Below are positions 16,921 to 60,525 of a DNA stretch of 64,000 nt, piece after piece (within the stretch, counting starts at the first letter, position 1; each line of letters opens with the position of its first letter). The notes under the pieces were generated by a model. The model searched no databases and was not told the DNA's origin. It saw only the letters and a program-made list of their open reading frames with translations. Made by a program: the position numbers and the translations under genes. This stretch comes from Pomphorhynchus laevis. Lineage: Eukaryota > Acanthocephala > Palaeacanthocephala > Echinorhynchida > Pomphorhynchidae. Location: the NCBI GenBank assembly GCA_012934845.2, contig WNNJ02003704.1, positions 124,001 to 188,000 of the forward strand, in the 5' to 3' direction.

Positions 16921-16974
16921 ATTATAGCTTTAAGTTTTATTTAATACAACACATGGTGTTTCGAAGTTATAATA

Positions 16975-17763
16975 ATGGTTTTTAAAAATAAATATAAGCG
17001 TTTTGGCAATTATCAATCGAGAGCATTGGGAAAGAATAGCGAAACACCATTTGGAGTATATGGTGGTGGACTCTATAGTCAATACAGTGGTGACAAGCAG
17101 CGAGGGTCTCAAACAGAGCATAAAAAAAGATTACAAGAAGAATTCATAAATCAACTGTACAGAGGATTTAATGGCACACCGAATGGGGGATTTATTGGTG
17201 GACCTATAGGTGGGGACTACGGTGGATTAAATGGACGATTTGGATCGACACCATCCAGTGAATTTAATAACGGATTTCGAAGAGGGTTAGGATTTGTACC
17301 ACCAGCAGGATTTGACGGCCCACGGGCCAGAGGATTTTATGATCCAACACAAGGTTCATATGCTACACCACAAGAAAGATTATATGGTAATCAATCCGGA
17401 GGCATCGGCGGGGTACCGTACGGAGGGCATTATGATACACGTCAAGGAGGATTTGGACAGTATGGTTATCCTCAATCATCTGAATACGGTTCAGCCGGAT
17501 TTAACAATAATTTTGGTAGTGGAGTTTCTAATGAATTCGGCAGTACATTTCCTGTTGGATTCAATAATGGATTTCCAAGAGGATTCAACAGTGGAGATCT
17601 TTATGGATTGGGCAGTGAACTACTGAGTGGAATGGCCAACGCATATTATAGTAGATTTGGAAATGGGCCGTCTAATAGCTACCGCAGTGATTTTCCAGAA
17701 AGATTTGGCAGTAGTGTGCCTGGTAGCTTTGGATTTGGACAATCGAGAGGATTTGGAATGTGA
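16975..17763 (+). CDS. Glycine/phenylalanine-rich repetitive protein, 262 aa
   Basis: An uninterrupted 262-codon frame from ATG in an otherwise stop-rich AT-rich stretch. The N-terminus is basic (MVFKNKYKRFGNYQSR) and has no signal peptide. A short charged segment around residues 44-62 (KQRGSQTEHKKRLQEEF) is followed by a long low-complexity region of G-F, G-G and NNGF-RGF units: GFIGGPIGGDYGG, FNNGFRRGLGF, FNNGFPRGFN and FGSSVPGSFGFGQSRGF. No catalytic motif is visible. Codon-level repetition with varied third bases argues for protein-level constraint. The only comparable genes here are the 92-aa glycine-rich pair, which share composition but no alignable sequence. A structural, cuticle-like, silk-like or RNA-binding low-complexity role is possible, but I do not recognise the gene. 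Confidence 0.6.
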   Translation: MVFKNKYKRFGNYQSRALGKNSETPFGVYGGGLYSQYSGDKQRGSQTEHKKRLQEEFINQLYRGFNGTPNGGFIGGPIGGDYGGLNGRFGSTPSSEFNNGFRRGLGFVPPAGFDGPRARGFYDPTQGSYATPQERLYGNQSGGIGGVPYGGHYDTRQGGFGQYGYPQSSEYGSAGFNNNFGSGVSNEFGSTFPVGFNNGFPRGFNSGDLYGLGSELLSGMANAYYSRFGNGPSNSYRSDFPERFGSSVPGSFGFGQSRGFGM

Positions 17764-19845: not shown

Positions 19846-21105
19846 ATGTTCACAAGTGAAAACGCTTATTGCGTGTCGGAGCATCAAAGCTCCTATGAAA
19901 ATGTGCCTGTAATCAACGCTTCCGCTGGAATTACAAATGGTAAAGGTAAAGTACCTTCTCCTAATCTTTCCTTTCGGACTTGCAGGTTAGTCAATTTAAT
20001 AAGAACTATGTTACTGACTCGGGGGAGCTCCCCCCGATACCGAAACTAAAAAATTTAGCAATCATTAATTCAGTTATGCCAATTGAAAAGCATAAGCTTT
20101 TCAATGTTTTTTTTACGTAGCTTCGTCCAGAACTACTCTGGAAGAGTAGTATTCAATTCGGTCCGATCATTCGTTAATCAACTAAAAGTCTCATTTTCGT
20201 CACATGAACTAATGGATGCTTATGAATCATTTTTCAATAATAATCTGTCCCATCTGGGATCTCTAACGCTAAAGCCCCTACAGGCAACTGTTAAGATTTC
20301 TAATTACCCTCCTTATTTGGAGGAGGAAGATCTGGTTCTCTTACGGGACACGTTCAAGTTGAGTTCAGTCCGCGGATTGAAATCTAAAACAGGGGAATCC
20401 TTACCTGTTGCGTTCTGCGGTACGGACTTAAACAACGCTGATATTTTGTCACGGAATGCAGTCAACCCCTTTATGGGGTATAATCTCAGATTCAATTTGG
20501 TTGATCAAGATTGCTTCACATTTCCTCATTGTAACTCCTGCCACTGCTGGGGGCACTGGGCCTCCTCCTGTACGCGGGAGAAATCGTGCGGAGTATGCGG
20601 CAAATCTTCCTGTATCGCTTTGTCAAAGGGGGAGAGGTGCGTAGCTCCCCCAGTCTGTACTAATTGTGGTGGGGACCACCCCGCGTGGTCACGTCGTTGT
20701 CGTATTTTCAGAGAATATAGAATGAAATATGCAGTCCCGGCTCCCCCAACTGAAAGAAATTTTGCTGCTGTTGCCGCGCAGCCATCGGAAAGAATGTCCA
20801 ACATGGATATTTTGCACTTGCTGGACAACAACAGGAAGAATACATTCTCTCAAATACAGCAGTGGCTAGCACCCCTCCTTGGGGCGTTCCTAAGTTCTCC
20901 CTCAGTTCCGTTGCAATCGGAGAAAGATTGTCCGAAATCAAAGAAAAGGGGTGGATCAGCAAGATCGGTTCCACCCCTCAAGGTTGGCAAGCTGATAAAA
21001 GAGAAAGGCGCCTCAAAGGGAAATGAAGATACTGCCCTGGGGGTTACGATTCTGGATGGGGCTAGTGGCGGGAGGGGCGACCTTCCCGCACCTAGCTCTG
21101 TCTAG
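19846..21105 (+). pseudogene. Family A LINE ORF1 (gag-like, CCHC) of copy A2
   Basis: The main open frame runs from ATG 20,104 (MFFLRSFVQNYSG) to 21,105, 333 codons. Homologous upstream coding is visible in other frames: GELPPIPKLKNLAIIN at about 20,022-20,070 has a counterpart in copy A5 (VLPPIPKLTNLAMI), and a frame from ATG 19,846 precedes it. The original ORF1 was therefore probably longer and is now frameshifted, one break falling at a run of eight T near 20,107. Three zinc knuckles lie at about 20,527-20,700: CNSCHCWGHWASSC (CX2CX4HX4C), CGVCGKSSC, and CTNCGGDHPAWSRRC (CX2CX3HX6C). ORF1 proteins of this type coat the element RNA. The stop is 32 bases before the ORF2 ATG. Confidence 0.8.
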
Positions 21106-21137
21106 GTTGACTTCCCCCGTCCAACTTGTCTAACACA

Positions 21138-23657
21138 ATGGTGAGTAAGCCTGAGCCTTTTTCACTGAATATTCTTCAGTGGAATTCGGGAGGTGCTTCT
21201 GCCCTTAGACTTTTATCTGGTAGAGATGCAGATGTTATAGTCCTTCAGGAGACGCGGTCTATCCGTATCCCCCAGGACATTACTCGATTTATCCCTCAGC
21301 ATATATACACCCACTTCACTCCGTATATAACGCCTTCTCACTCCTCTTCATCTCAAGGTCTTTTAACCTTAGTTAAATGCTCCTTAAGATCTTCCATCCT
21401 TCTTAACTATTCTTGTCCTGCCCTATCTTGTCTAGCTATATTACTTCGTAAGAGCGGTAAATGTATCAGCATAGCCAATATTTATATACGGCCAGGAGAA
21501 ATTCACAAGAACCGTGACCTCCTGGATCGTTTATTGGGTAGCGGCTATGACATGTTACTTGGTGATTTCAACGACAGAACTGGTCGTTGGATTAATGCAG
21601 CAAACCGCAGAGCCAGGAACGAATATCTTATTCACAAACCACCATCCCCCACCTTTCATTGCTCAACAACTAATTCACTCCTCGACATATTACTGCTTCA
21701 TAAGACGTGGTTGTATAAACCCTTCTCTACTGAGCAGTCGCGCCAACAACATGCCACCTCTCATGACCTAATTCGTTGGCAGTTAGAGGAAGATACGTTG
21801 CTGAGGAGAAGGTTCCACTTTGATCCCGTCAGGGTGGCCTTCTTTCAGGCAGCTATCCAACTATTCCCCCGAATTGGGAATGAGAGTTTGACCAAATTTA
21901 ATACTTACCTCTCTTCGCAAGCTACCGCGATACTATCAACTACCTATAAAGGTCGCATACACAATCCCACTCCAACAAAACTCAAGGTCCTAGCTAAAAT
22001 GCTACATCTTCCTACTCTCTCTGTTTCCGCCAGACAAGCCCTCTCGAATGAATACTGGAGCACTAGATATAGGTTCCAGTTGAGTAGGGATAAGGCAAGC
22101 ATTTCTCGCCTTAGCCCTTCTCAGTCTTCCTTCTGGAAGATACTCAAGAAGGAGAAGTTTGTCTGTTGGAAGGATAGAGCATTAGGTTGGATTGGTAGAA
22201 TAGGCCTTGATAAAGTTTTGGAAGAGGCACTATCCCTTCACAATTATGGAGCCATTCATTCACCCCAACCAATCCCGCCTTGGTGTGACTTCAGGAGTAG
22301 GGACTTATCTGTTACAGATATCCTTAACTCATAAAGGCCACTCCCGGGCACCTCCAGAACCTATGCGCCACTCTCCACTTGTGTCTGTCAGCTTTTGACA
22401 GACAGTCAAAGAAAGGAAGTCGCCATAACAATGCTATTAGCCTCCCCTTCCGACATTGCTAACATAAATATTAGCCGTCGAGTATTTTTACCTAAAAAGA
22501 AGTCGATTACATGTCCCAAAGATCTGCGGCCTATTTCAATTCAAAACTCCCTCATCTCCATTTACGAAAAAGCGCTTGCGCGTAAAATCCGCGACCATCT
22601 AAATTGGCGAAATTTAATCCCACCAGGTTTTCATGGGTACGTAAAAGATCGCTCGGTCCATTCAGCAATAGGTGAAGTGCAACAGTTTTGTCAGGATAAC
22701 AGTCATCAGCTTGCTGTTGCTGTCTTTCTTGATTTTTCGGCTGCATTTGACCGCATTTCCATTCCTTTTGTTATCACTTCTCTCAGGTCCCTCGGGTTGC
22801 CTGCGAGAATTGTTAACAGGGTGGAAATATTGCTGTACTCCAAGCGATTCTTCTATGAAGGCGACCCTGATGCACGTCAGTTCTATCCTATTACGGGTGT
22901 GCCTCAAGGCTCCCCACTTTCTCCAATCTTGTATCTTGCTGCCTTCATTGAACTATACAAAAAATTCAAACGAGATCAACATATTGTGGTATATGCTAAT
23001 GATACCACAGCCCTGTTCTCTGGACGCAGGTGCAAAGATGTAGTCTCTGACATCAGCCATTTCTTTACCAGATTAAAAGATCAGCTGCCAATTTCCAATC
23101 TTGTTTTAAACTCCTCCAAATCGCAGGTGGTTGTCTTTAATGGCGCCCCTGCGACAAAGAAAAAACTCAAGAGATTAGCACTCTCAGCTCTATCTTCCAT
23201 CCTGACTAATCAACCACTCCCTACCTTCACAAATCGAGTAAAATACCTGGGATTCACCATTACGGTGAGCTGGTCAGCGAAAGCTGACCTGGATAGACTA
23301 AAACGTATCCTGAAGAGAGCTAGATGGGCCCTGAAACGGGCCCAACATCTGTCATTGAAAGAGAAATCCCAAGTGCGCCTCTGGGGTACTTGGGCTATCT
23401 CGGGATTAGTTTTCTTTTCAAGAGGACGTCCCCCAGAACAAAGACTAAGGTTTCTCAAGCTCCTTGTCTCGCGTTTACCCGTCATAGTCCGCATCGACTG
23501 GACTCTTCGGGGAGGGGGTGAAAGACCCCGGGTGGTTCAGTCGCAAGGCGGCGTGTTGGATTGGTTGAAGGGCTCAGATCCCCATGGATTTGAGGCTATA
23601 ATTCTGGAAAACGGGCTTGCATTTGAAGAGTGTCAATTATCTATGAAGAAGATTTAG
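21138..23657 (+). pseudogene. Family A LINE ORF2 (APE endonuclease + RT) of copy A2
   Basis: One frame of 840 codons from ATG 21,138 to TAG 23,657, interrupted only by TAA at 22,332-22,334. Copy A4 has tryptophan there (DILNSWRPLPG). The N-terminal apurinic endonuclease shows NILQWNSGG, DVIVLQETRS, ANIYIRPGE, LLGDFNDRTGRW and ATSHDLIRW. The RT follows with DLRPISIQNSLI, PPGFHGYVKDRSVHSA, VFLDFSAAFDRI, VPQGSPLSPILYLAA and the active site at 22,992-23,003. That site reads YAND instead of YADD, losing one catalytic aspartate that A1, A3 and A4 retain. No RNase H domain is apparent. The clade (Jockey-, I- or R1-like) is not resolved by eye. Confidence 0.85.
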
Positions 23658-23734
23658 ACTGTAACTGTATCATTGTATTTATTCTATTTATTTATCCTGC
23701 ATGTTATTTATTATTAATAAAATCTATTATTATT

Positions 23735-26700
23735 ATTTATATAATAATAGACCTAAAAAAATTTAGGTTTCTTATAAACATACATTTGAGATAAAAACAT
23801 ACAAAATCAGTTTGAAATTCTAAGCTGCTAACAAATAACTATTTACAAAAGTTTACAATCCTTCGAATTTTTTAATCCATCAATAACAAAGAATCACTGT
23901 GCTCAGTATCAACGCTCTGAAATCGACGCTACATGCCTAGATGAATACCTTCTTCGCTATCAAAATGCTGCAACTGCAACACGAGTGCAGCCAAATGTAT
24001 TCGCTGTAAATGTGCGCGCAATTCGAAACCTTGCACAACGTGCTCTGCTCCTAACTGCCCCAGGAAAAACCAGGTGCTGTCCACACACGCGTCTACCAAT
24101 GTCCAATTTACATCGCACTTACGTGCTACATCTGAAACTCAAAACGTTGGAACAAAAAGTCCGCAGAACATTCTTCAGACAGAACTTGAGCCTATAACTG
24201 CAACCATCTCGCAACTCCAATCTTCATCAGATACTCTCTCGGTGGAGTCGATATTGCATGAAGTTATTCTTTGGAAACCAAACCTGTTTAGACTACCAAG
24301 ATGCATCGGATCTAAGCGATTTATCTCAGAGCTTGCACGGATATATGAATTAGCATCCACAAACGATTGCTCGCTTTCACTCGCGGTTGTCATCAGTCAG
24401 TTAATCCTCCAGCGCCCTGCTAAAGCGAACCCTAAGCAACTAAAACAAATTCTCGATCGCAGACTTGATTGTTGGACAAGCGGAGATATGCAAACGCTGC
24501 TCAACGAAGCTCGTTTTCTCCAGTCTCAGTCTTCCCACAAGCTATATGATCCTCTAAATAATGATATTCTGAAAACTGTTCAGAAGCTTGTTCTTGGTGG
24601 GAAAATGACAGCTGCTGTCAAATTACTTGAATCAAATGATGGTACAGAACATCCTCTTCGAATAGACGAAATAATAGACGGCCAAACAGTGAGACAAATT
24701 CTTATTGATAAGCATCCGATGGCTTCAGCAAAATCTGATGACGCCATTCTGCGCAGGCCTATCGATGACATTCCTGAGTTTCACCCAGTTGCATTTGATT
24801 CTATTGACTTTGAACTGATCGTTGCCAACTCTAAGAAAGTAAAGGGAGGAGCGGGCCCGTCCGGATTAGATGCAAGAGCATGGCATCGAATGTTGGTTGA
24901 CTTTGGGGCAGAATCGAAACGTCTAGCTGAATCACTTGCATCTTTCGCTCGACAATTAGCATTAAATCCAATCTCACAGGAGTCGATGACAGCCTTCACC
25001 GCTAGTCGCCTTATTCCTCTTAGCAAAAATCCTGGCGTACGTCCTATAGGAATAGGAGATGTTTCCAGACGCATTATATCTAAATCAATATTGAAAATAA
25101 TATCACCCCAACTGCAAACAATATGCGGGAACGTCCAATTCTGCGCCTCGCAGCGTGCTGGCACCGAATGTGTTATTCACGGTATTCGTGACTCGTTGAA
25201 GAGAAATCCTACATTCGTGCTACTCACAATAGATGCTGACAACACATTCAACAGAGTGAATAGAATGACCGCTCTCTCAAACATGCCAAATATCTGTCCA
25301 GCATTGAACACAGTCCTTTCTAACCTATACAGAAAGCCGACACTGCTAACAATTGACAGTGAATTCTTACTATCTGCTGAAGGATTTACACAGGGCGACG
25401 TCTTTTCGATGGCAGCATTTGCCTCTGCAACACTTCCGTTACTACTCCGTATCAAAAGAACTTGCCCAAACATTAAACAGTTATGGTACGCAGACGACGG
25501 CAACCTCATAGGTTCCCCACAAGATGTCATTGAAGCATTTAAGTTGCTTCAATCCTTCGGCCCCTCATATGGCGTACACTTGAATCCGGGAAAATGCAAG
25601 GTATATTCCAACGGGAACGACATCTCGACTTTCCAATCGTTACTTGATAACGCTGGAGTCTCCATCGTTGAGGATGGCTTACCCGTTCTTGGAGTACCAA
25701 TCGGATCAGCCGAATACATAGAGACGTTTATACGATCATCAGTTTCCTCCCTTTGCACATTAGTGTCACAGTTGAAGAAAGTAGGAGAGTTAGACACTCA
25801 GGTTGCATACGTGTGCTTAATTAAGTCTATTCAGCATAAATGGACACATACTCAACGATGCTATGAATGCCCCTCTGCGTGGTTCGCACCTCTGACACTG
25901 AAACTAAAATCTACAATATCACATCTTTTTGACATTGATATTTCTCAAGACGATATCTTATGGCGCACATGCCAGTTGAGTTTTCGCAACGGCGGTTTAT
26001 GCATTAGAGATCCGTCCACGTTACCAAGCAACGAATATCGATCATCGACCTCAGTGTGTGAGCCAAGCATACAAGGATATATTGGCTCGGTACTTAATTC
26101 TATGCAGGAGACAATTATTAAAAATCTACGGGCAGCAAAAGCCTCTAGTGAAAAGCTTGACCAAGAAGATATTTTGAGCAATGCGAGTGGAATTCTGTGT
26201 ACCGCAATTGAGCATGCTTCAACAACAGGGGCTTCGTCATGGCTATCCGGATATCCTACATTCGATCGAGCAACTCGATTAAGTAACATCGAGTTTTGTG
26301 ATTCTATTTCTTCTAGATACGGAATTACGCCTAAATCCGCACCAACTCAATGTAAATGTAGGCAGATTAATACAGTTGCCCATGCTCTCTCATGCCCATT
26401 CGGTGGTCTTCCGTCGATGCGACACGATGCCGTGCGCGATTTTATTGCCTATCAGCTAACAGAAACATCGTATAACGTACAAGTCGAGCCGCTGCTTACA
26501 CCAGTCCCGCCAAACTTTGACTTTAGAAACGGCTTAACGACAAAAGACCGTGATGCTAGGCTCGACATTGCATGCTCAGGGTTGTATGGTGATAGGAGTG
26601 AGCGAACTTTCTTCGACATTTGCGTGTTTAACGCTTTCGCTCAGTCCAACTCCTCCAAGACACCAGAGTCCTGCTATAAGTACCACCAACAGCGAAAGCG

Positions 26701-27043
26701 CAGTAAATATCTCGAAAGAATAACAGAGTTCGAGCGGGGGTCTCTTGTACCCGCCGTCTTCTCATTCTCAGGTGGAAGCGGTGAAAATGCCACACAACTT
26801 TTAAGACGGATCGCATCTAAATTGGCAAATAAGCGAGCAAGCAGATACCCTGACGAGCTTACAAAGCTTAGAACGCGTCTAGGCCTATTACTTGCAAAAA
26901 TGACATCGCGATGCATCAGAGGAACGCGATCTGCAATCGGACGTCCAGAATTTTGAACCCAAACTGAACTTAATTATCATTTACGGGCCCATTTGCGGGT
27001 AACCCAGAGATTGTAAAATAATAATAGATTTATATAATAATAG
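23735..27043 (+). mobile_element. Family E LINE, apparently full length with 16-base target duplication (copy E3)
   Basis: The exact 16-mer ATTTATATAATAATAG occurs at 23,735-23,750 and again at 27,028-27,043, bracketing 23,751-27,027. The left copy is in the AT-rich 3' tail of family A copy A2, so E3 inserted into A2's tail and is younger. The element starts with an 18-base inverted repeat (ACCTAAA, four A, TTTAGGT), has a 182-base leader, one ORF, and a 71-base 3' UTR with GGGCCC...GCGGGTAACCC that could fold, ending GTAAAATAATAATAG. The surrounding DNA is repetitive, so the duplication deserves a check, but the 16-mer is not a simple repeat. Confidence 0.7.
23933..26956 (+). pseudogene. Family E polyprotein: cysteine cluster, RT, CCHC, restriction-like endonuclease
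   Basis: From ATG 23,933 the frame reads MPR, TGA (23,942-23,944), then IPSSLSKCCNC and onward without a stop to 26,956, 1,007 codons. Copy E1 starts MPKGVPASIPRCCSC, so this ATG is homologous and the TGA replaces a glycine codon. Residues 12-42 hold nine cysteines spaced like a CXC (tesmin/TSO1-like) zinc domain. The RT includes RLIPLSKNPGVRPIGI, LLTIDADNTFNRV, FTQGDVFSMAAFA and LWYADDGNLIG (YADD at about 519-522). After the thumb come a finger CKC-x7-H-x3-C (about 807-819) and RHDAVRD. Endonuclease-like R876-L-D878 and F-F-D895 follow, then FVFSFSGG-like blocks. This domain order is that of RLE-type non-LTR elements (R2/NeSL/Hero-like), which nick DNA and prime reverse transcription there. 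No other inactivating change is visible. Confidence 0.85.
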
Positions 27044-27270
27044 ATTATTATATAATCTATTATTAATAATAGATTATAATTATTAATAATCTATTATTAT
27101 TAATAATAGATTTATTATTAATAATAGATTTATTATTAATAATAGATTTATTAATAATAAATTAATAAATCTATTAGGGGAAATAGATTTATTTCCTCCC
27201 TTTAATAATAGATTAATAGATTTATAATAATAAATAATAGATTTATTATTAAGGGGGAAAGGGTGGGAAA
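27044..27270. repeat. AT minisatellite with 18-base unit
   Basis: Built around ATTATTAATAATAGATTT, three near-perfect units at about 27,094-27,150, surrounded by related TAATAATAGATT variants in both orientations and two G-rich interruptions (TAGGGGAAAT, AAGGGGGAAAGGG). It directly follows the right flank of E3, and its units resemble both the E3 and A2 tails. Confidence 0.75.
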
Positions 27271-27343
27271 AATGAGTCCTCTGATTGATAATACTTCTTA
27301 TAGTGAGGTAGGAATAGTGTCGGTAGCAGACACTTCAATATGA

Positions 27344-30340
27344 CTAAAACCAAATTCTCCATTTGTAGAGTCTGAATCCGATTTTATTGACCTACGTCGT
27401 TTTCTGCTGTTTAATGTAGAAGGTTTAGAAACACTTTTAAAAGAAGAATTTAGTGATTACCTTTTATCTTTTGACATCATAGTACTTTTGGAAACTTTCG
27501 CTACCTCTCCTATTACATTAAACTCATTTTATACTTTTGAAATTTTAGCTACTCTAGGCGATCGCGGTCGACCGCGTGGAGGTGTATTTTTGGCCGTCAA
27601 TAGACTGTTGAGAGATTGGTCTTTTAAGACTACGGAAAACGCGATTTATCTTAATTCGTCAAATTTGGTAATAATTGCTTGTTATTTCAGTCCTTCCTTG
27701 AATGCATGTGATATTATCGGTGAGTTGTCTGAACTTCTTGTAGATGTTTCATATCATAAACCTATCGTTATTGCTGGTGACTTTAACGCCAATCTTAGTC
27801 GCTCCGCTCAAAAACTTGATTTATTGAAAAAGTTCTTTGTGTCTCACGATATAACTCTTTTTGCTCCTATTGAAGGCTGGGCATATGAATTTGGACAATC
27901 TAGAAGTTGTCTTGATTTAATCTTTGCAAATTTTGGGATACATAACGTGCGTCTAGATTTTGATTCTACTTGGGCGCTACGTCGCAAACATAAGCCAGTA
28001 ATATGTATTCTAGAGGGCTTTGTGACAAACCGTAGTACTTACCAATCTGTTCAAGCCGTCAGTAGGAAAATCTCATTTGAAGCTCTTGACCTCTATAATT
28101 TGGAGAATTCTAAGCGTCTTTTGAGTAAGGGACACATTTATCACAGTTACTCTTTACTTTGCAACACACTTTTATCTTCATGTGAGATTAAAAATCCCGT
28201 TTCTCGTAGTTCGTTTAGAATGCCGGATAATTTGAGACGATTGCAGAAACTTCTACTTTCATTCTACAAGTTAAATGAATTTGCACTCTCCAACTCAGAT
28301 TTCGTATACTTACGTAGGCTTTATTTGAATGGTGTGAAAAAGTTTAAGTTGGAGAACTTATTAGCAAAAGAGCGAAGACTGCTTTCCAGAGCAGAGAATG
28401 CTCCGTGGCTTTTACACTCTAGATCTTGTAAACTTGCTTCTCGGATTCCTTTGGAACAGTGGCGTCAACATTTTGTGAATATTCTAGCTTCAACTAATCT
28501 TTCGTCTTTTAATTCTAAGGATTGTGTTCTTTATTGCCATCTAATTGACCAAAATCATCTTAATCTTAGTTTTGACTTAGACGAAATTGAGTTATGTCTA
28601 TTCAAGATGTCCTCCTGTAAAGCAGCGGGAATAGACCAATTGTGTGTGGAACACATGAGACAGACCTTCGGCTTAGTTTCGGAATATTGGCTATTTTTCT
28701 TCAATGCTATACTTAGAGGCCACCCTATCCCACTTGGTTGGCGTGATGGCATAATTAAAGTAATCTACAAGGGTTCAGGGGATCCTTCCTGTAAAGACTC
28801 GTACAGGGGAATAGCGCTACTTAATCATGCATATAAAGTTTTATCGAATTTAATGGCGTTGCGTTTGCTTCGGTTTCGCAGTGATTTGTTACCATCTGAA
28901 CAACATGGGTTCCGTAGAGGTTATTCGACACTGAGTGCTCTTCAAATTCTAAGGTCAAAGGTTCTGGATACTATACGTCAGCACTCCTCCTTGTACGCTG
29001 TGTTTATCGATTTTGCCAAGGCCTTTGATTCTATAGACAGAGCGTTGCTTTTGTCAAAGCTTCATAAATAAGTTAATGTTCATGGTGATTTTCTATTACT
29101 TCTCGAAAGGATCCTAGCGCCTAGTTCATTACGAATTTTTGACGGCATGAATTACTCCGAAGTATTTACCACCAGTCGTGGAGTACAACAGGGAGATCCG
29201 CTTAGCCCGTTATTATTCTCTTTTTTTGTTGGACCTTCCAAATTTTATTCGTTCATCAGTATCAGATGTTACAACTATATTGTATGCGGATGATTTAGCC
29301 TTGATAACATTAAATAAAATATAACGCTCAATTGGCGATTTCAGCTCTGTTAAATTATTGCGAAACTAATGGACTCATTATTAATACAGAAAAATCCAAA
29401 ATTATTAAATTCAGAAAAGGTGGACCTTGTCGTCGTGATGACGTGCTGTATATCAAGGACAGTATTTTAGAGTTCGTGCCAACATATAAGTATCTTGGAT
29501 TTTTGCTTAGCTCGCGATGGTCATTCAAAGCGCATCTATTGAAACAATCTGCAAAAGTATTGAAATCTACGAATGCTGCTTCTAAACTTGGATTACTTTC
29601 GTTTGAGGGTGCGGTTAGTTACTTTAACATAATGCTGCTACCTATTTTGAGTTATGGAATTAAATGTTTCTGGACCGATTTGTTACCAACGGATTTTCAG
29701 ATAATTGACAAATGTTTCTGGCGATTCCTAAAGCGGGTGGTAGGGGTCTCGCCCAAAGCTTCCTCTACGGCTGTGGTCGTCCTTAGTAGATCAACACCCT
29801 TGTCAGTAAAAATATCAAATGATTTACATCTTGACTCGACAGATGCTTATTTAGAAAACCGATATCTCTTTGATTCCAAAGTCAGTAGATTAGATCCTGA
29901 TATATTATGTTCCCCTGTTTACACACAATCAACTTGGAGGAACCCAAACTATCACAAACGTCCGCTTATCTGGCGTCTATCATTAGATGGCTATCATTCA
30001 AAATTTTGCATTATTCGGCTTCCTTTCCACTCTCGCACTTCCAGCTGTTATTGTCGATTTTGCTCATTATCTTGCTCTTCTCTGCTACATGTTTTTAAGT
30101 GTCTATACTTATCCTCTTTGCCATTAAAACTCATTGACAAGGGTCAGTTGTACTTGTGATTAGCTTATGCATTTCATTGTACTAACATTACAGTTTTTAT
30201 ACGCAATGTGGCTACATTTATTTTGTTTGATTATGTTGATTACTATGCTACTGTTTCTGTTACTATGCTACTGTTTCTGTTTAAGGGCTTTTGTGTTACC
30301 CGAAGCCGACAGGCGTTAACGGGAAAATAAAAACGCTGCA
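27344..30340 (+). pseudogene. Family B LINE ORF2 (APE endonuclease + RT), broken
   Basis: The open frame from 27,344 to 29,071 begins inside or at the start of an endonuclease (SFDIIVLLETF, GRPRGGVFLAV, VIAGDFNANLS, SCLDLIFANF). It enters the RT: MSSCKAAGIDQLCVEHM, IPLGWRDGIIKVIYKG, SYRGIALLNHAYKVLS, PSEQHGFRRGYSTLSAL and VFIDFAKAFDSID. A stop at 29,069 is followed by VQQGDPLSPLLFSFF, a frameshift near 29,220, then TILYADDLALITL, another break near 29,325, and ALLNYCETNGLIINTEKSK to a stop at 30,159. The end holds a SSCYCRFCSLSC cysteine block. The 3' UTR has CCCGAAGCCGACAGGCGTTA then ACGGG, able to pair as CCCG/CGGG plus GCC/GGC, and AAAATAAAAA before an ATTATTATTTA tail. No ORF1 was found upstream. 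Confidence 0.8.
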
Positions 30341-37779: not shown

Positions 37780-40700
37780 CTGCACATAAAAGCATGGCTT
37801 AATTGGCTGGTTCACTGCAGAAAAAAAAGAAAATATAATAAAAGTATCACAAATACGGAAAAGCAGCGTTCCCCATGGCATCCTCCATTCGTAATTTCTT
37901 TTTGAATTCGTTGATATTGCTACTGCACACTGTTGACTCTCCAAGCCTATTCCACAGAGATACAACTCGCCGATCAAATTGGACAGCTCGTGATTTTCTT
38001 ATCCTTTCACATCGCAGGGTTAAACCATGGCCTCGGAGGATATTGGATGATCGCAAATGAAGGCAATCTCGAAGTGGATGATCAAAACATTAAGAATTTG
38101 CCATACCATACTCATATCGATGTACCGGCGGGTCCACGTGACAGTGTCAAGTCTAAGTGATTTTAATCGATCAGGGTACGACAAATATTTCAGTTGCGGT
38201 GCTAGCTTGGTAGCTCTATGAAGTACCCTCTCTGAACTAATATGTTCTTTTGAATTTTGGGGATACACACACGGCGCAGCATATAGAAGACGGCTCAACA
38301 CATGAGCAAAGATTTGCGGACTAGGGCAAATTTATTGAGTGCAATGAAAGTGCGTCAAAGTTGACCGATTATCCCCAACGCATTTGAACAAGCATGTTCA
38401 GTATGTGTGACGGTACTCAAATCACTGTTTATCTACACTCCCGAGTCCTTATATTTGTTCACTCGTTCTATATCACTGCTTTGAAAGCTATAATTAGCTA
38501 AAGATTGAGCATTTCCGCCACAAACACGTAAATGTTTGCATTTTGATATATTTACAATCAACCTATTGAGCAGAGCCCAATTTTCGACTTCATCGATATC
38601 CCGTTGCAGTTTAACTATATCATTGGGTGAACGAATTGCCCGCCAGATTTTCAAATCGTCTGCATATAAAAGCATCCGAGAATCAATAAATTCCGGGAGA
38701 TCGTTGATGTAGACACTAAATAGCAATGGACCCAATACTGAACCTTGAGGCACCCCTATATTACATGGCCGCGAAGAAGAGTAAATATTATCTACATGCA
38801 CACAATAACTATGATTGCTTAAAAACGATTCAATCCATCTAACAAGCAAAAATGGAATGCCACTTTTCTCTAGTTTATTTAGGAGGAATCTATGGTCTAC
38901 TCTGTCAAATGCCATAGAGAAATCGAAGAATATGATGTCAGTAGCAATGGATACGGCTTTATTAGCTAACAAATCAAGATAGGCTGCGAGTAAATTGGTA
39001 ACTGTCGAATTACCCTCACGGAAACATTGTTGCTCAGAAGCTATTACTTTATTCTCACTATGAAACTTGACCATATAACCATGTATAATTCGCTTTTACA
39101 TTCTACAACATAAGCAAGTAATACTTACTGGTCTGTAATTGTCTACTGAAAATCTATCACCCTTTTTGAAGATGGGGTGAATGATCGATTGTTTCCACTC
39201 TTTTGGAAGAGTTGTATCAATAATAGATTGTCGAAATATGTTACAAAGTGGTGTATATATTGAGAGTATGCTATTCGACGAAGATATATCAAAGGTAACA
39301 AATCAGCACCTTTGGAGTTTGTCTCTTTAAGACGATGCAGTTCAGCTAAAACTTTCTCAGAAGTTATCAAATTAGCTATGTCTAAACTAGGATATGAAAC
39401 ACTAGCACCTCTTATCGTCTCACTGTTCTGGATAGGTTCAGAATACTCGTTTGTAGTCTCTTTGTCCAAGTAAAAATTCCTTGAGAACAACTCAGCAAGG
39501 TCGTCTTCAATAACGCTATCAAAATATTGGCCAATTGTTTTATTAGCGTTCCTACTACTATTCACATATAGAAAGAGAGCTTTGGGATCATGCCTACAAC
39601 TATGAGCTGCACCATTTTCAAATAAATAGCGCTTATGCCGTTTTAAAGAATTGAAGAAATTTCTCGCCTGCTTATAAACACCATATTCACAAAACTCACC
39701 CTTAAAGCATTTGAAACTGAAGTCACGAGCCTTTATCGCAGTAGCCAGCTCAGTATCAAACCAACGATCGCTTTTCCGACTAGTCTTATAGTTCAAAAGT
39801 GATAATTTTACCATTAGAGAATAAAGCGCCACTCGAAAATGATCCCAGGCCTCGTCAACTCCGACAACGGCCGGATCAGGCCAACTTACTCTATGCAGCT
39901 TTGATGTAATAACATCATAGTTCGCCCGAAAGACATTAATCTGACGTTTGTACCGAGCATGATGAAACACCCTCATTTGTATATTTAGCAAAACTTTAAC
40001 TACACAGTGATCAGACAAACCAACAGGAGAATCATATTGGATACTACTGATTAATTTACTGTTTGTCGATAGGCAAAGATCAAGAAGGGAAGAACTACAA
40101 CTTGAAAAGCGAGTATGTACATCAACAAATTGAGCAAGACCACAATAAGTAAAACACGCCATAAGGTCACAAGATTCACTATCACAAGTAGGAAGAACCG
40201 TATTCGAAGTCCATTCAACATCTGGCATATTCAGATCCCCAATTATCACAGTATCACAATCTCCTCGCGTATACAACTCTATCTCTTCAATGAGTTTCTT
40301 AGATATTGCCTTAGGAGCACGATACACAAGACCCAGTATGATGGGTGAGCTGTTATCAAACTTCACCTGACACCACAAACTCTCAACTCTATCAATAGAC
40401 GACTTACTCAAAACACGCACCTTAACTTTGTCTCTCATAAAGAGAGCTACGCAACCACCCCTACCCCTTATCCGATCACTACGGAACAAAGAATAGTCTG
40501 GGATGGATCAGCATCGGATACATCACAATTAAGCCAAGATTCTGTAATACCAACTATAATTGGATTAACAGACTCGATCATAAACTTTAGCTCATCGACT
40601 TTCTGTAACAAGCTCCGAACATTACAATAAAATATACTATGACTTTTATTCACACCAGTGCGAGTAGTAATATCATCTCTAGCAATCTGACACACTTCAG

Positions 40701-57700: not shown

Positions 57701-59164
57701 TATATGGAGAACTTCACCGTTAGCTTGTGGATACGAAACTTCAGAGAGTACATTAAAATTCTACCTACGTATGCATTAACAAATAGGGAAAATTGTCGAT
57801 TGAGTTTTATGAATCATCTCCTGATAATACCAAATGTCCTCATCGCCCTATATCAAGTATCATCTGTATTTGTTTCAGTTTTTAAGTTGTTTGCCATGAC
57901 AATTCCTAGGATTACGGATCCTATGTTATAACAGTGATTTAAATATTACTTGTTCAAATGCATATAAGTTCACTTTGCCATTCAAACTTTTATCTTATTT
58001 GCCAATATAGATCTATCATATCCATCATATCATCTAATATCATCCGCGTACATCGGCAAATGTGACTTAATAAAATCAGGTTGATCATTTATGAATATAA
58101 TAAATATAATAATGAACTGAGAATAACCTTGAGAAACACGCATTCTAATGCTCACCTAGTCAAGTGCTTTAGCTAAGTCAATAAATATAAGATCACCATC
58201 AAAAACTTTATCTAGGGACTTAAGCAAGTTGTTACGAGCTATTAGAAGTCTCTACATGACAACACTCAATATGTGTAGCCCTTCAGATCAAGTACGAATT
58301 AATTTGAGAACATGTTATCAAATTATAAAAAACTATATGGGTTCTTATTGATGTACTGTTAATCAGTTCAATAAAAAATCAAAAAATTCAATTTGAATAA
58401 ATTTAAAGTCATGCTTTGTTATAATAAATGCAATTGATCTGTGGATAAATGGATTCGTGTTAGGGATTATGTAATCCACAAAATGTGATCAAAATAAGAT
58501 TATGTAAGCAATTAAATTTTATATTTTAAACTCAAATTCCATTTTATTGAAATTAAATTTTAAAATTTGGGTTGAAATAGAACATACTTTGTCTAAAGCC
58601 TATAAAATAAATGGTACTAACTAAATTGCAAAATAATTTAAAAAATTAAACAAAGGTCAACGCCTACAGATGCTTGTCGATCTTCTTCTGCTCTCGATAT
58701 TTCTTCAGTAGATTTCGAAGTACGCGAATCCGTTTCATCCATATAATCTAGATATAATAATTTAATATAAAATTAAATGTCATTGCTTACCTTTTCAGGC
58801 ATTCGGGCATTGGCAGTACCCTTGCGTTTCCCGAGTCCACGATGACGACCCTTTCGCCTGGCTTCAGCTCTCTTCTTTGCACGGAATCTAGTATGAACTG
58901 CAACGGGCTTCTTTATTATAAGACCGTCCTTAATCAAACGTCGAACACTTTGTCCTTAACACAAAAGTACAAAAGTTTGGCAAAAGTAAATCAAATATGT
59001 ACTTGAAACGGACAACTGTATTTCGCTGGTTTCGTTAGGATCAAACCATATCTTTCGTTCACCACACTTTAGTATTGAAGCAGCCAAACGCTTCGGCAAC
59101 AGCAAAGCACTGGAAATGAAAAATGTTCTTTAAAAGAGAGATTATTAAGGTTCAGTTACCTCAT
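54772..59164 (-). CDS. RpL19: 60S ribosomal protein L19, five coding exons
   Basis: Coding exons on the minus strand: 59,164-59,160, 59,109-59,003, 58,954-58,791, 58,747-58,668 and 55,063-54,772. They total 648 bases, 215 residues plus TGA, and all junctions are GT-AG. The protein starts [18 protein letters not shown]. It then carries [107 protein letters not shown] and LTEQAEARR, the L19e family in order. L19 is an essential large-subunit protein that contacts the small subunit through its long C-terminal helix. The acidic, serine- and lysine-rich tail makes it slightly longer than the roughly 190-200 residues usual in animals. Three introns are 50, 48 and 43 bases; the last is 3.6 kb and contains retroelement debris. 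The 5-base first exon (ATGAG) needs its splice confirmed. Confidence 0.93.
55891..56103. repeat. Duplicated segment and long perfect hairpin
   Basis: ACTAATAGCGGCGTAGTTAT with the following AACAACTATATTACATATTC (55,891-55,936) recurs with few changes at 56,022-56,066. The second copy continues into an inverted repeat: 56,050-56,075 and 56,078-56,103 are exactly complementary over 26 bases with a two-base spacer, and ATAAC/GTTAT extend it after a small internal loop. The first copy lacks the mirrored half. Confidence 0.85.
56945..58315. repeat. 72-base direct repeats flanking LINE remains
   Basis: A segment starting AGAAGTCTCTACATGACAAC and ending GTACGAATTAATTTGAGAAC occurs at about 56,950-57,021 and 58,241-58,312, differing only in the middle (CGACATATG against AATATGTG). 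The RT fragment lies between them. They could be an unusually long target duplication, terminal repeats, or the product of a local duplication. Confidence 0.75.
57390..58270 (-). pseudogene. Decayed CR1/Jockey-like RT inside the RpL19 intron
   Basis: The minus strand reads [18 protein letters not shown], then [45 protein letters not shown] and D (an MYADD active site) near 58,040. Downstream [17 protein letters not shown] and [13 protein letters not shown] match the tail of RTs with the DLGV-x-x-LK and LG-x-I-x-R motifs. Stops are frequent. Same transcriptional strand as RpL19. Confidence 0.6.
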
Positions 59165-59204: not shown

Positions 59205-59639
59205 CTGAAAATAGACAAAATTACTGCATCTACATACACGATGTCAAAGCACGCGGAAGAAATCAACAGAGAAAACTATATTCTAAAACATCGTCATTAA
59301 CCTATTGAATAAATTAAAATTCACTGCAATAATATTTTAACTGCGGTTGTAAAAACACTCCGTTTTTAAGCAAGTGAGCATCTACCATTCAATAGATAAC
59401 GACGGTTTCAGACAAGTGATTTTTAAGTCTAAATCCGTTTGAGTGTGACTAATGTGACTCAATAGCATGCTAAAATAACGCTTAATATTACTGATCCAGG
59501 TTTAAGCGATGTTTTTGTCATACGCATTATTTGAGCAAATTACAAATTTTAATGACGAAGAACACTATAATGATGATAATATCATATAATAATAATATAT
59601 CAATAAATTTCCTCAAATGGAAATACTATTGTTCGTGGA

Positions 59640-60095
59640 ATCATTTGATATCAGGGCGTCAGCACCACGAAATAAATTCAACAGTGAAATTGTCGCAAAT
59701 GACAAAGTCACCGTTTCGAGCTAGTTGGCTCTCATCAGTAGCTTGTACTCCCCACAATTGTATTGATAGTAATGCATAGCAGCATTGCATCGTAGTGCTA
59801 CATTGTACTATCCAGTAGCCAACTGGTGTGTATCTTTGTAGCACAACGCGCTTGGTTCTCCAGCGCTTAATGCAGACGGGTAAATATTTGCAGTTGCAAA
59901 CCCCAGTCTTTGCAAGGGAACAAGGAGCCTTTGTTGTTTCAAATCACCGTATAGCTTTTCTCCCAACTTCAATCCAGTTGTGGGGACTACAAGCTACTGA
60001 TGAGAGCCAACTAGCTCGAAACGGTGACTTTGTCATTTGCGACAATTTCACTGTTGAATTTATTTTGTGGTGCTGACGCCCTGATATCAAATGAT
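59640..60095. mobile_element. Foldback element: 127-base inverted repeats around a 202-base spacer
   Basis: Arm 1 (59,640-59,766) and the reverse complement of arm 2 (59,969-60,095) differ at only about five or six positions, starting from the shared ends ATCATTTGATATCAGGGCGT. Both arms contain CTGATGA, GAGC...GCTC and GAAA of a hammerhead core, on opposite strands. Only arm 2, together with adjacent spacer sequence, makes a complete ribozyme. No clear target duplication flanks the element. The spacer has no coding content. It may be a solo terminal repeat of a Penelope-like element, a retrozyme relative, or a MITE. Confidence 0.75.
59944..60027 (+). ncRNA. Type III hammerhead self-cleaving ribozyme
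   Basis: Strand order fits type III. Stem III 5' side is TCACCGT (59,944-59,950), then H17 = A at 59,951 with cleavage predicted after it (GUA triplet). Stem I is TAGC (59,952-59,955) and GCTA (59,993-59,996), with an inner helix TCTCC/GGGGA (59,959-59,963 with 59,982-59,986) plus AAC/GTT. The invariant CTGATGA follows at 59,997-60,003. Stem II is GAGC (60,004-60,007) and GCTC (60,014-60,017) with a CAACTA loop, then GAAA at 60,018-60,021. Stem III 3' side ACGGTGA (60,021-60,027) pairs with the 5' side over seven base pairs including A15.1-U16.1. Every catalytic-core nucleotide is present. Such RNAs cut retroelement or satellite transcripts. RpL19 is transcribed away from it on the other strand. 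Confidence 0.85.
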
Positions 60096-60525
60096 AATAT
60101 AATGTCATAATAATGATATAATGCATTTATTAAAATATCTATTAATTCATTATAGTATAAATTAATTTATATATTAATTTATTCAAGTATTTAAATATTA
60201 ATAAATTTTAAAATATTCAAAAATAATAATATATTTTTATTTTATATTAGATATTTTATGAGTTGAATCATAAACACAGTTATAGATGACACCCGTTCCA
60301 CGTTTCTGAAAAGTATATTCAACAAGTAATGTATCATAGAGATTTGGTGGCCTGCGAGGCGAATTTAGTTCTTCTAGCCATTTCATTCGGCGCACTGCTA
60401 GATTTTAAAGTTCGTATATTTGGATAAAGTTTCATAATTTCGAAATCATAGTTCGTCTTCTCTTTGTTATCGGTCAAACTTCACTCCTGTGAAGTAGAAA
60501 ATATTTATTAATAATTATTTTGAAT
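60096..60525. other. Spacer
   Basis: AT-rich sequence without a recognisable gene or repeat; the only notable patch is a slightly GC-richer stretch at 60,290-60,400 that shows no motif. Confidence 0.4.

Follow-up and report, generated by a model that had tools for sequence, protein, structure and literature searches.

The window analysed in this study is a stretch of 64,000 nucleotides of the genome of Pomphorhynchus laevis, and one motif near its end reads as a complete hammerhead ribozyme of type III. A sequence-only reading of the window had called such a copy unusual in an animal. The literature cited here agrees: in the parts of PMC7761336 and PMC6155905 that we drew on, type III is described chiefly from plants and their subviral RNAs, from bacteria and phages, and from some HDV-like agents. 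The question raised by the locus is what this motif belongs to, whether the copies of its family record cleavage, and which machinery moves them.

The hammerhead motif

Direct reading and the MFE fold both confirmed that 59,944-60,027 (+) is a complete type III hammerhead with every core base present, as the sequence-only reading had proposed. The core CUGAUGA, GAAA (60018-60021), the U16.1-A15.1 pair and H17 are all there, together with three helices, and the topology is type III because stem III is open. Stems I, II and III have 6, 4 and 7 bp; the earlier counts for stems II and III held, and stem I proved longer than the 4 bp given before. UCACCGU and ACGGUGA pair over all 7 bp of stem III (59944-59950 with 60021-60027), and the 6-bp base of stem I is followed by an internal loop and an extra inner hairpin. 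The cut predicted after position 59951 agrees with the hammerhead layout, in which H17 is A59951 (Table 1). The MFE fold of 59943-60027 reproduced exactly these helices at -28.1 kcal/mol (z -3.5), and 0/200 shuffles of this segment folded as well. A type III descriptor that asks for 4 bp or more in each of the three stems was run on both strands of the window and gave one match, which was this motif. Simulated windows with the same dinucleotide frequencies gave 10 descriptor matches in 3,057, a chance of about 0.003 per window before stems of 6/4/7 bp are required.

At the gathering score, Rfam gave 0 matches in the window. The best permissive hammerhead match was a partial one to Hammerhead_HH9 (16.7 bits, E 0.41), and RF00008, a model of 54 positions, gave no match anywhere when run over the genome, 14 controls included, which makes that run uninformative. 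The sequence-only reading had named a covariance score below threshold as a result that would refute the motif, and the Rfam score is indeed below the gathering threshold. In our view the cause is the extended stem I, with its 6-bp base, internal loop and inner hairpin, and the miss reads as a limit of the Rfam models facing such a stem; the gathering threshold is a database threshold and lies outside the definition of the ribozyme. A covariance model made only from sequences of a second family, F2, matched 59943-60028 with 39.1 bits and a rough E-value of 3.3e-7. A type I reading of the motif was rejected: the HH9 match relies on a local stem III, and no fitting stem I was seen by eye. Phage records gave no match.

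Table 1. Features of the hammerhead and of the surrounding repeat copy in the window.
Feature	Position	Strand	Basis
Extended type III hammerhead ribozyme	59944..60027	+	Direct reading, fold, descriptor, F2-only model
Stem III, 5' strand UCACCGU	59944..59950	+	Sequence reading
H17 = A59951, with predicted cut	59951/59952	+	Sequence reading
Stem I, 5' strand UAGCUU, then inner hairpin	59952..59957	+	Reading and fold
Stem I, 3' strand AAGCUA	59991..59996	+	Reading and fold
Core CUGAUGA	59997..60003	+	Sequence reading
Stem II GAGC-CAACUA-GCUC, 4 bp, loop CAACUA	60004..60017	+	Reading and fold
Core GAA, then A15.1 and stem III 3' strand ACGGUGA (60021-60027)	60018..60027	+	Reading and fold
F1 element copy, about 490 bp, inverted partial unit and plus-strand unit	59600..60089		Mapping on 369-nt unit
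Minus-orientation piece, unit about 184 to 18, outer end at 3' site B	59600..59766	-	
Plus-orientation piece, unit 179-369 then 1 to about 138, outer end at 3' site A	59761..60089	+	
Probable left target-site duplication AATAATAATATA	59588..59599		By eye
Probable right target-site duplication AATGATAATATA	60090..60101		By eye
Defective minus-strand hammerhead half (core and stem II only)	59708..59785	-	Model scores, folding

The insertion copy in the window

The motif lies in a copy of a dispersed repeat, here called F1, with a 369-bp unit in tandem or inverted arrangement. Unit position 1 was set at the first base 3' of the predicted cut. The window copy (locus L001, BLAST ends 59598 and 60095) consists of a minus and a plus piece that overlap at 59761-59766 and form a 127-nt inverted repeat of 97% identity. 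It looks like an insertion product in which two cDNAs were joined head to head. The segments 59588-59599 and 60090-60101 are identical at 11/12 positions; the exact target duplication is uncertain, because the site is AT-rich and the automatic flank search chose a different exact 10-nt match, ATGATAATAT. The minus-strand copy of the core has lost the 5' half. It still scored 44.2 bits with model R1, in which the window sequence is included, yet its stems I and III contain non-pairing; the F2-only model gave 11.5 bits (E 1.6), and the copy showed no hammerhead fold when folded. The extended type III hammerhead is the sole recognised functional part of the element.

An inverted repeat of this kind would also be expected from a foldback or MITE-like DNA transposon that carries a hammerhead by chance. 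We regard this as extremely improbable, since the arms vary among copies, many copies are without arms, the motif has a chance of only about 0.003 per window, and F2 has the same ribozyme layout.

The eL19 ribosomal protein gene lies in exons at 58667-59129 (-), and the F1 copy is about 0.5 kb from the exons found. Among the 120 relatives listed of 1,729, nearly all named relatives of the hand-spliced eL19 are animals, which identifies the host as an animal, as for metazoan retrozymes. The best named ones among the matches listed are nematodes and tardigrades (69-75%), and one is, going by its label, presumably a red alga. A repetitive open frame of 272 aa at 16945-17763 (+) is rich in glycine, serine and phenylalanine.

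F1 and its sister family F2

F1 has at least 247 matches in its own genome (249 Mb, 3,242 contigs), a lower bound from 198 candidates of which 40 were scored. The exact core occurs 99 times in the 249 Mb, with 0 in the reversed control, and it was absent from the viral contigs searched. The unit has a GC content of 42.8%, and tandem arrays show a period of 369 nt. F2 was reached through a core pattern search and has a unit of about 304 nt (GC 40.8%), with at least 45 matches (2,328 first-look candidates, 40 scored) and 948 exact cores (0 in the reversed control). The search for further type III families covered cores other than those with T after CTGATGAG.

The F1 and F2 units share no detectable similarity beyond the ribozyme; their best match is 33 nt long (73%, E 0.66) and lies within it. 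The ribozyme of F2 agrees with that of F1 in its type III layout; its loop II is UGUG, and its predicted cut follows GUC. In an alignment of nine chosen F1/F2 rows, 95.4% of stem cells were paired (74.0% after shuffling) and the covariation score was 0.608 (0.226 after shuffling), and 0/500 shuffles were as high in either measure. Since the alignment is in essence one contrast, F1 against F2, these cell counts overstate the number of events. Both sides changed in 9/17 stem pairs, and slid structures reached at most 2; shuffles averaged 7.8 such changes, and 107/500 of them reached 9. The capping hairpin of stem I contains ATCCAGT.GTG in both families, which are otherwise unrelated; it is a possible tertiary contact or protein site.

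Twenty of the first 30 F1 loci were mapped, the other 10 overlapping them; locus ids number 43 in total, six of them pieces of three long arrays. For F2, 18 of 20 loci were mapped, plus L079. The flank test was applied after removal of the six array pieces and of loci ending <40 nt from the stretch edge, which kept 35/43 F1 and 17/19 F2 loci. Exact stretches of at least 8 nt common to both flanks were found at 20/35 F1 loci (7.4% for re-paired flanks) and at 7/17 F2 loci (9.6%).

Conservation values in F1 were 2.0% for the whole unit, 1.7% for the ribozyme core and 2.2% for the rest, and the ribozyme ranked 155 of 369 windows. No selection on the ribozyme was visible when it was compared with the rest of the unit. 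That it is no better conserved is as expected for a young family and proves no use. The same lack of excess conservation, and head-to-tail arrays such as those on C836 and C2846, would be in keeping with satellite DNA amplified by recombination with the ribozyme as a passive passenger. This explanation is very unlikely, as there are many separate insertions with shared flanks, and the 3' ends recur and the 5' ends vary.

A pattern for other hammerhead cores, which leaves out F1 and the main F2 form, gave 1,777 matches in the genome and 9 in the reversed control. Among seven fetched regions, 13/16 copies fit type I. Type I tandem families of about 463 and 351 bp are present on C47, C13, C6, C19 and C12 (L101-L104, L107), and copies in L104 and L107 lie in opposite orientations. 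End mapping of F3/F4 covered three loci only. Fragments resembling cox1 with stops or frame breaks occur on several contigs (L074, L075, L076) and are possibly nuclear copies of mitochondrial DNA. The sequence-only reading had described a single type III copy in an inverted repeat near a ribosomal protein gene. Its topology, cut position and inverted-repeat setting stand; the context was drawn too narrowly, as the copy belongs to a multi-copy mobile repeat with a sister family, beside type I families.

The 3' ends of the copies

The outer 3' ends of F1 fall mostly at unit positions 131-146 (site A) or 178-191 (site B), with 44/54 ends in these windows. Outer 3' ends of F2 lie at 100-116 or 138-150 (23/29). 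The two sites are about 45 nt apart in F1 and 33 nt in F2. The windows were chosen after the F1 and F2 ends had been viewed, the hold-out excepted, and segments of <60 nt were omitted from the counts. In the F1 hold-out, for which the windows were fixed beforehand, 19/22 ends fell in A or B. No poly-A tail was found at the F1 3' ends inspected, and some flanks are AT microsatellites (e.g. L025, L030, L062).

The inverted copies combine the two sites in a regular way. Among F1 tail-out copies whose two outer ends both fall in the windows, a pairing of site A with site B was found in 8/8 two-segment pairs, in the three-segment copy L020 and in 2/2 hold-out copies; 7/7 F2 inverted copies with both ends in their windows likewise had one of each site. 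This makes 18/18, for which the chance is about 4 in a million by our own arithmetic if ends are drawn evenly and independently. Ten further inverted pairs, six of F1 and four of F2, have an end outside the windows and are outside this count. One of these is L056, with ends at 136 and 153, both near A. The genomic ends fit two adjacent internal initiation sites and extension of both target strands, as in Penelope-type initiation.

The 5' ends of the copies

The 5' ends gather at the predicted cut. A 9-nt window at this position holds 9/58 ends from 9/40 loci in F1 and 10/34 ends from 8/19 loci in F2, and 0/20,000 rotations reached the observed counts in each family. The 9-nt windows richest in 5' ends begin at 366-369 for F1 and, for F2, at 300-304 or 1, and a scan over all F1 unit positions for a 5'-end peak gave P 0.002. 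One locus, L081, supplies three of the ten F2 ends at the cut. The F1 hold-out, 20 further loci that are short copies picked for keeping the core, had 1/22 ends in the pre-set window (p 0.42), and two more at 6 and 9; this set lends the peak no support. L078 and L081 are one place, where F2 pieces stand head to head with both 5' ends at 1 and a few A/T between, as if two full-length cDNAs had met.

A second, weaker excess of F1 5' ends was seen at unit 56-76 inside the ribozyme (8/59, p 0.018, in a window chosen after looking); one locus-edge end was removed between the two counts (59 to 58). These ends are perhaps stops at folded RNA. Such an excess would lend itself to the view that the ends at the cut, too, are made by a reverse transcriptase halting at folded RNA, and not by cleavage. 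We consider this quite unlikely. An enzyme coming from the 3' side would meet the ribozyme at 76 and reach position 1 only after stem I had been copied, and six of 34 F2 ends, three of them from L081, are exactly at 1. Cleavage-made ends are the preferred reading, and the ends of the genomic copies suggest that the predicted ribozyme may cut in the living animal.

Several copies end at the cut after crossing an intact unit junction (L051, L060 and L061 in F1; L085 and L086 in F2). The template may therefore have been a linear multimer, or the enzyme may have jumped between unit-length RNAs. A simple circular template would leave the end at the cut unexplained.

The mobilising machinery and a proposed cycle

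In vitro, cDNA synthesis by a purified Penelope-like protein begins at two internal sites of the RNA that are separated by a tail of 30-40 nt; the protein also cleaves and extends the two strands of the target and favours AT-rich DNA (PMC11167929). The one-of-each ends of F1 and F2 match this two-site, two-strand initiation, and a Penelope-type mobiliser is therefore inferred. The own genome contains at least 75 GIY-YIG matches, of which 20 loci were fetched. Minimal hammerhead cores were found in 7/20 of these loci (L033, L034, L036, L039, L043, L044, L047), mostly of the form CTGATGATGATAGC..GCTATCGAAA, and L043 and L044 have one core on each side in opposite orientation. Pfam found a GIY-YIG domain in L043 and L047 and no reverse transcriptase match on the pieces of L047, where reverse transcriptase-like motifs were seen by eye. 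Local GIY-YIG loci with hammerhead cores are presumed to be Penelope-like elements. No sequence link was seen between local Penelope-like 3' ends and sites A and B of F1 and F2. The best GIY-YIG match, L031 on C1660, is a bacterial-type UvrC gene and probably reflects bacterial contamination or a symbiont on a contig of the animal assembly. F1 and F2 themselves were rejected as Penelope-like elements, as units of 304-369 nt are too short for an RT and GIY-YIG ORF.

The mobiliser might instead be an ordinary LINE, with F1 and F2 moved in a SINE-like way and inverted copies formed by twin priming of the LINE-1 style. LINE insertions likewise yield 5' inversions and shared flanks of the length observed at the loci, about 8-16 nt. 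By eye, long open frames at 20059-30159 and 38433-40507 of the window resemble non-LTR reverse transcriptases or endonucleases, and one of 1,003 aa at 23945-26956 has reverse transcriptases as its relatives. The reverse transcriptase of the local GIY-YIG loci is unconfirmed, which also favours a LINE. This origin is nevertheless unlikely, because the 18/18 use of one of each internal 3' site fits Penelope-like initiation and the F1 3' ends inspected have no poly-A tail.

We believe that the best explanation of the locus is the insertion of a non-LTR retrozyme with an extended type III hammerhead, mobilised by Penelope-type machinery, with a probability of roughly 0.76. It builds on what was computed here: the motif, the family, the two 3' sites and their one-of-each rule, the target duplications, the 5' clustering and the layout of the sister family. 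Catalysis, transcription and a Penelope protein as the mobiliser of F1 and F2 are what we infer. Tandem genomic F1 units would be transcribed into multimers, which the hammerhead would cut between A59951 and U59952 into linear RNAs, and some of these would keep a junction that was left uncut or had been religated. AT-rich DNA would then be cut on both strands by a reverse transcriptase/endonuclease of Penelope-like type, provided in trans. The cDNA would begin inside the RNA at either of the two sites, A (about unit 138) or B (about unit 184), and copying would proceed to the ribozyme-made 5' end or halt earlier. Where both target strands prime, the two cDNAs may join head to head and give tail-out inverted copies such as that of the window.

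Relation to known systems

Animal non-LTR retrozymes carry type I hammerheads, and Penelope elements are named as their strong candidate mobiliser in the parts of PMC7229834 used here. In the same parts, these retrozymes are short tandem units of 150-450 bp with GC <50%, have many copies, no LTR and target duplications of >4 bp, and live in genomes that also hold Penelope elements. F1 and F2 share the short tandem hammerhead units, the GC <50%, the many copies, the target duplications and the absence of LTRs. They differ in their extended type III hammerhead, where the published type is I, and are therefore classed as a variant and not as plain members. They also form inverted copies, of which PMC7229834 makes no mention: a search of its text for 'inverted' gave 0 hits. 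No type III tandem retrozyme of an animal was found in the open-access literature searched.

Plant LTR retrozymes, as described in portions of PMC7229834 and PMC7761336, are likewise non-autonomous and of type III; they measure about 600-1000 bp, are bounded by LTRs, make target duplications of 4 bp and are believed to rely on Gypsy machinery. F1 and F2, with units of 304-369 nt, no LTR seen and longer shared flanks, do not fit this class: LTRs, a unit of about 700 bp and a 4-bp target duplication are all missing. An HDV-like agent is also unlikely, as units of 304-369 nt argue against a larger circular RNA with a delta-antigen ORF. A similar hammerhead layout is seen in the extended type III motifs described from HDV-like RNAs of toad and termite and from the genomes of termites and dipterans, which also have a short stem I base, an internal loop and an extra hairpin (PMC7936874, in part). 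According to the same portion, the genomic termite motifs are isolated, whereas F1 and F2 are tandem repeats, and a GCCR/YGGC loop pseudoknot is reported, which was not seen by eye in F1 or F2 (CAACUA, UGUG).

Penelope-like elements share with F1 and F2 two internal cDNA start sites (theirs separated by 30-40 nt), the cutting and extension of both strands, a use of AT-rich targets, and tandem copies; they differ in encoding RT and GIY-YIG, for which the F1 and F2 units are too short (PMC11167929). They carry a minimal type I hammerhead, unlike F1 and F2 (PMC7229834 and PMC7761336, in the sections used). The in vitro work on a Penelope element found the hammerhead dispensable for insertion, and the cut site of that hammerhead coincided with neither the start nor the end of any read (PMC11167929). 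We think it probable that animal type III retrozymes, in at least two families beside type I, are copied by Penelope machinery from two internal sites, and that their insertion ends are a genome-wide record of in vivo cleavage unseen in that in vitro study.

In the literature sampled here, type III hammerheads mostly characterise plants and their subviral RNAs, and type I characterises animals. If our reading is true, this boundary between plant and animal hammerheads would be blurred by an animal retrozyme with a working type III motif, which would also have a bearing on where the ribozymes of viroid-like RNAs and HDV-like agents came from. Two open questions could then be put to the test with genome sequence: whether such hammerheads cut in vivo, and which machinery moves retrozymes, the latter being open because PMC7229834, in the parts used, names Penelope only as a strong candidate.
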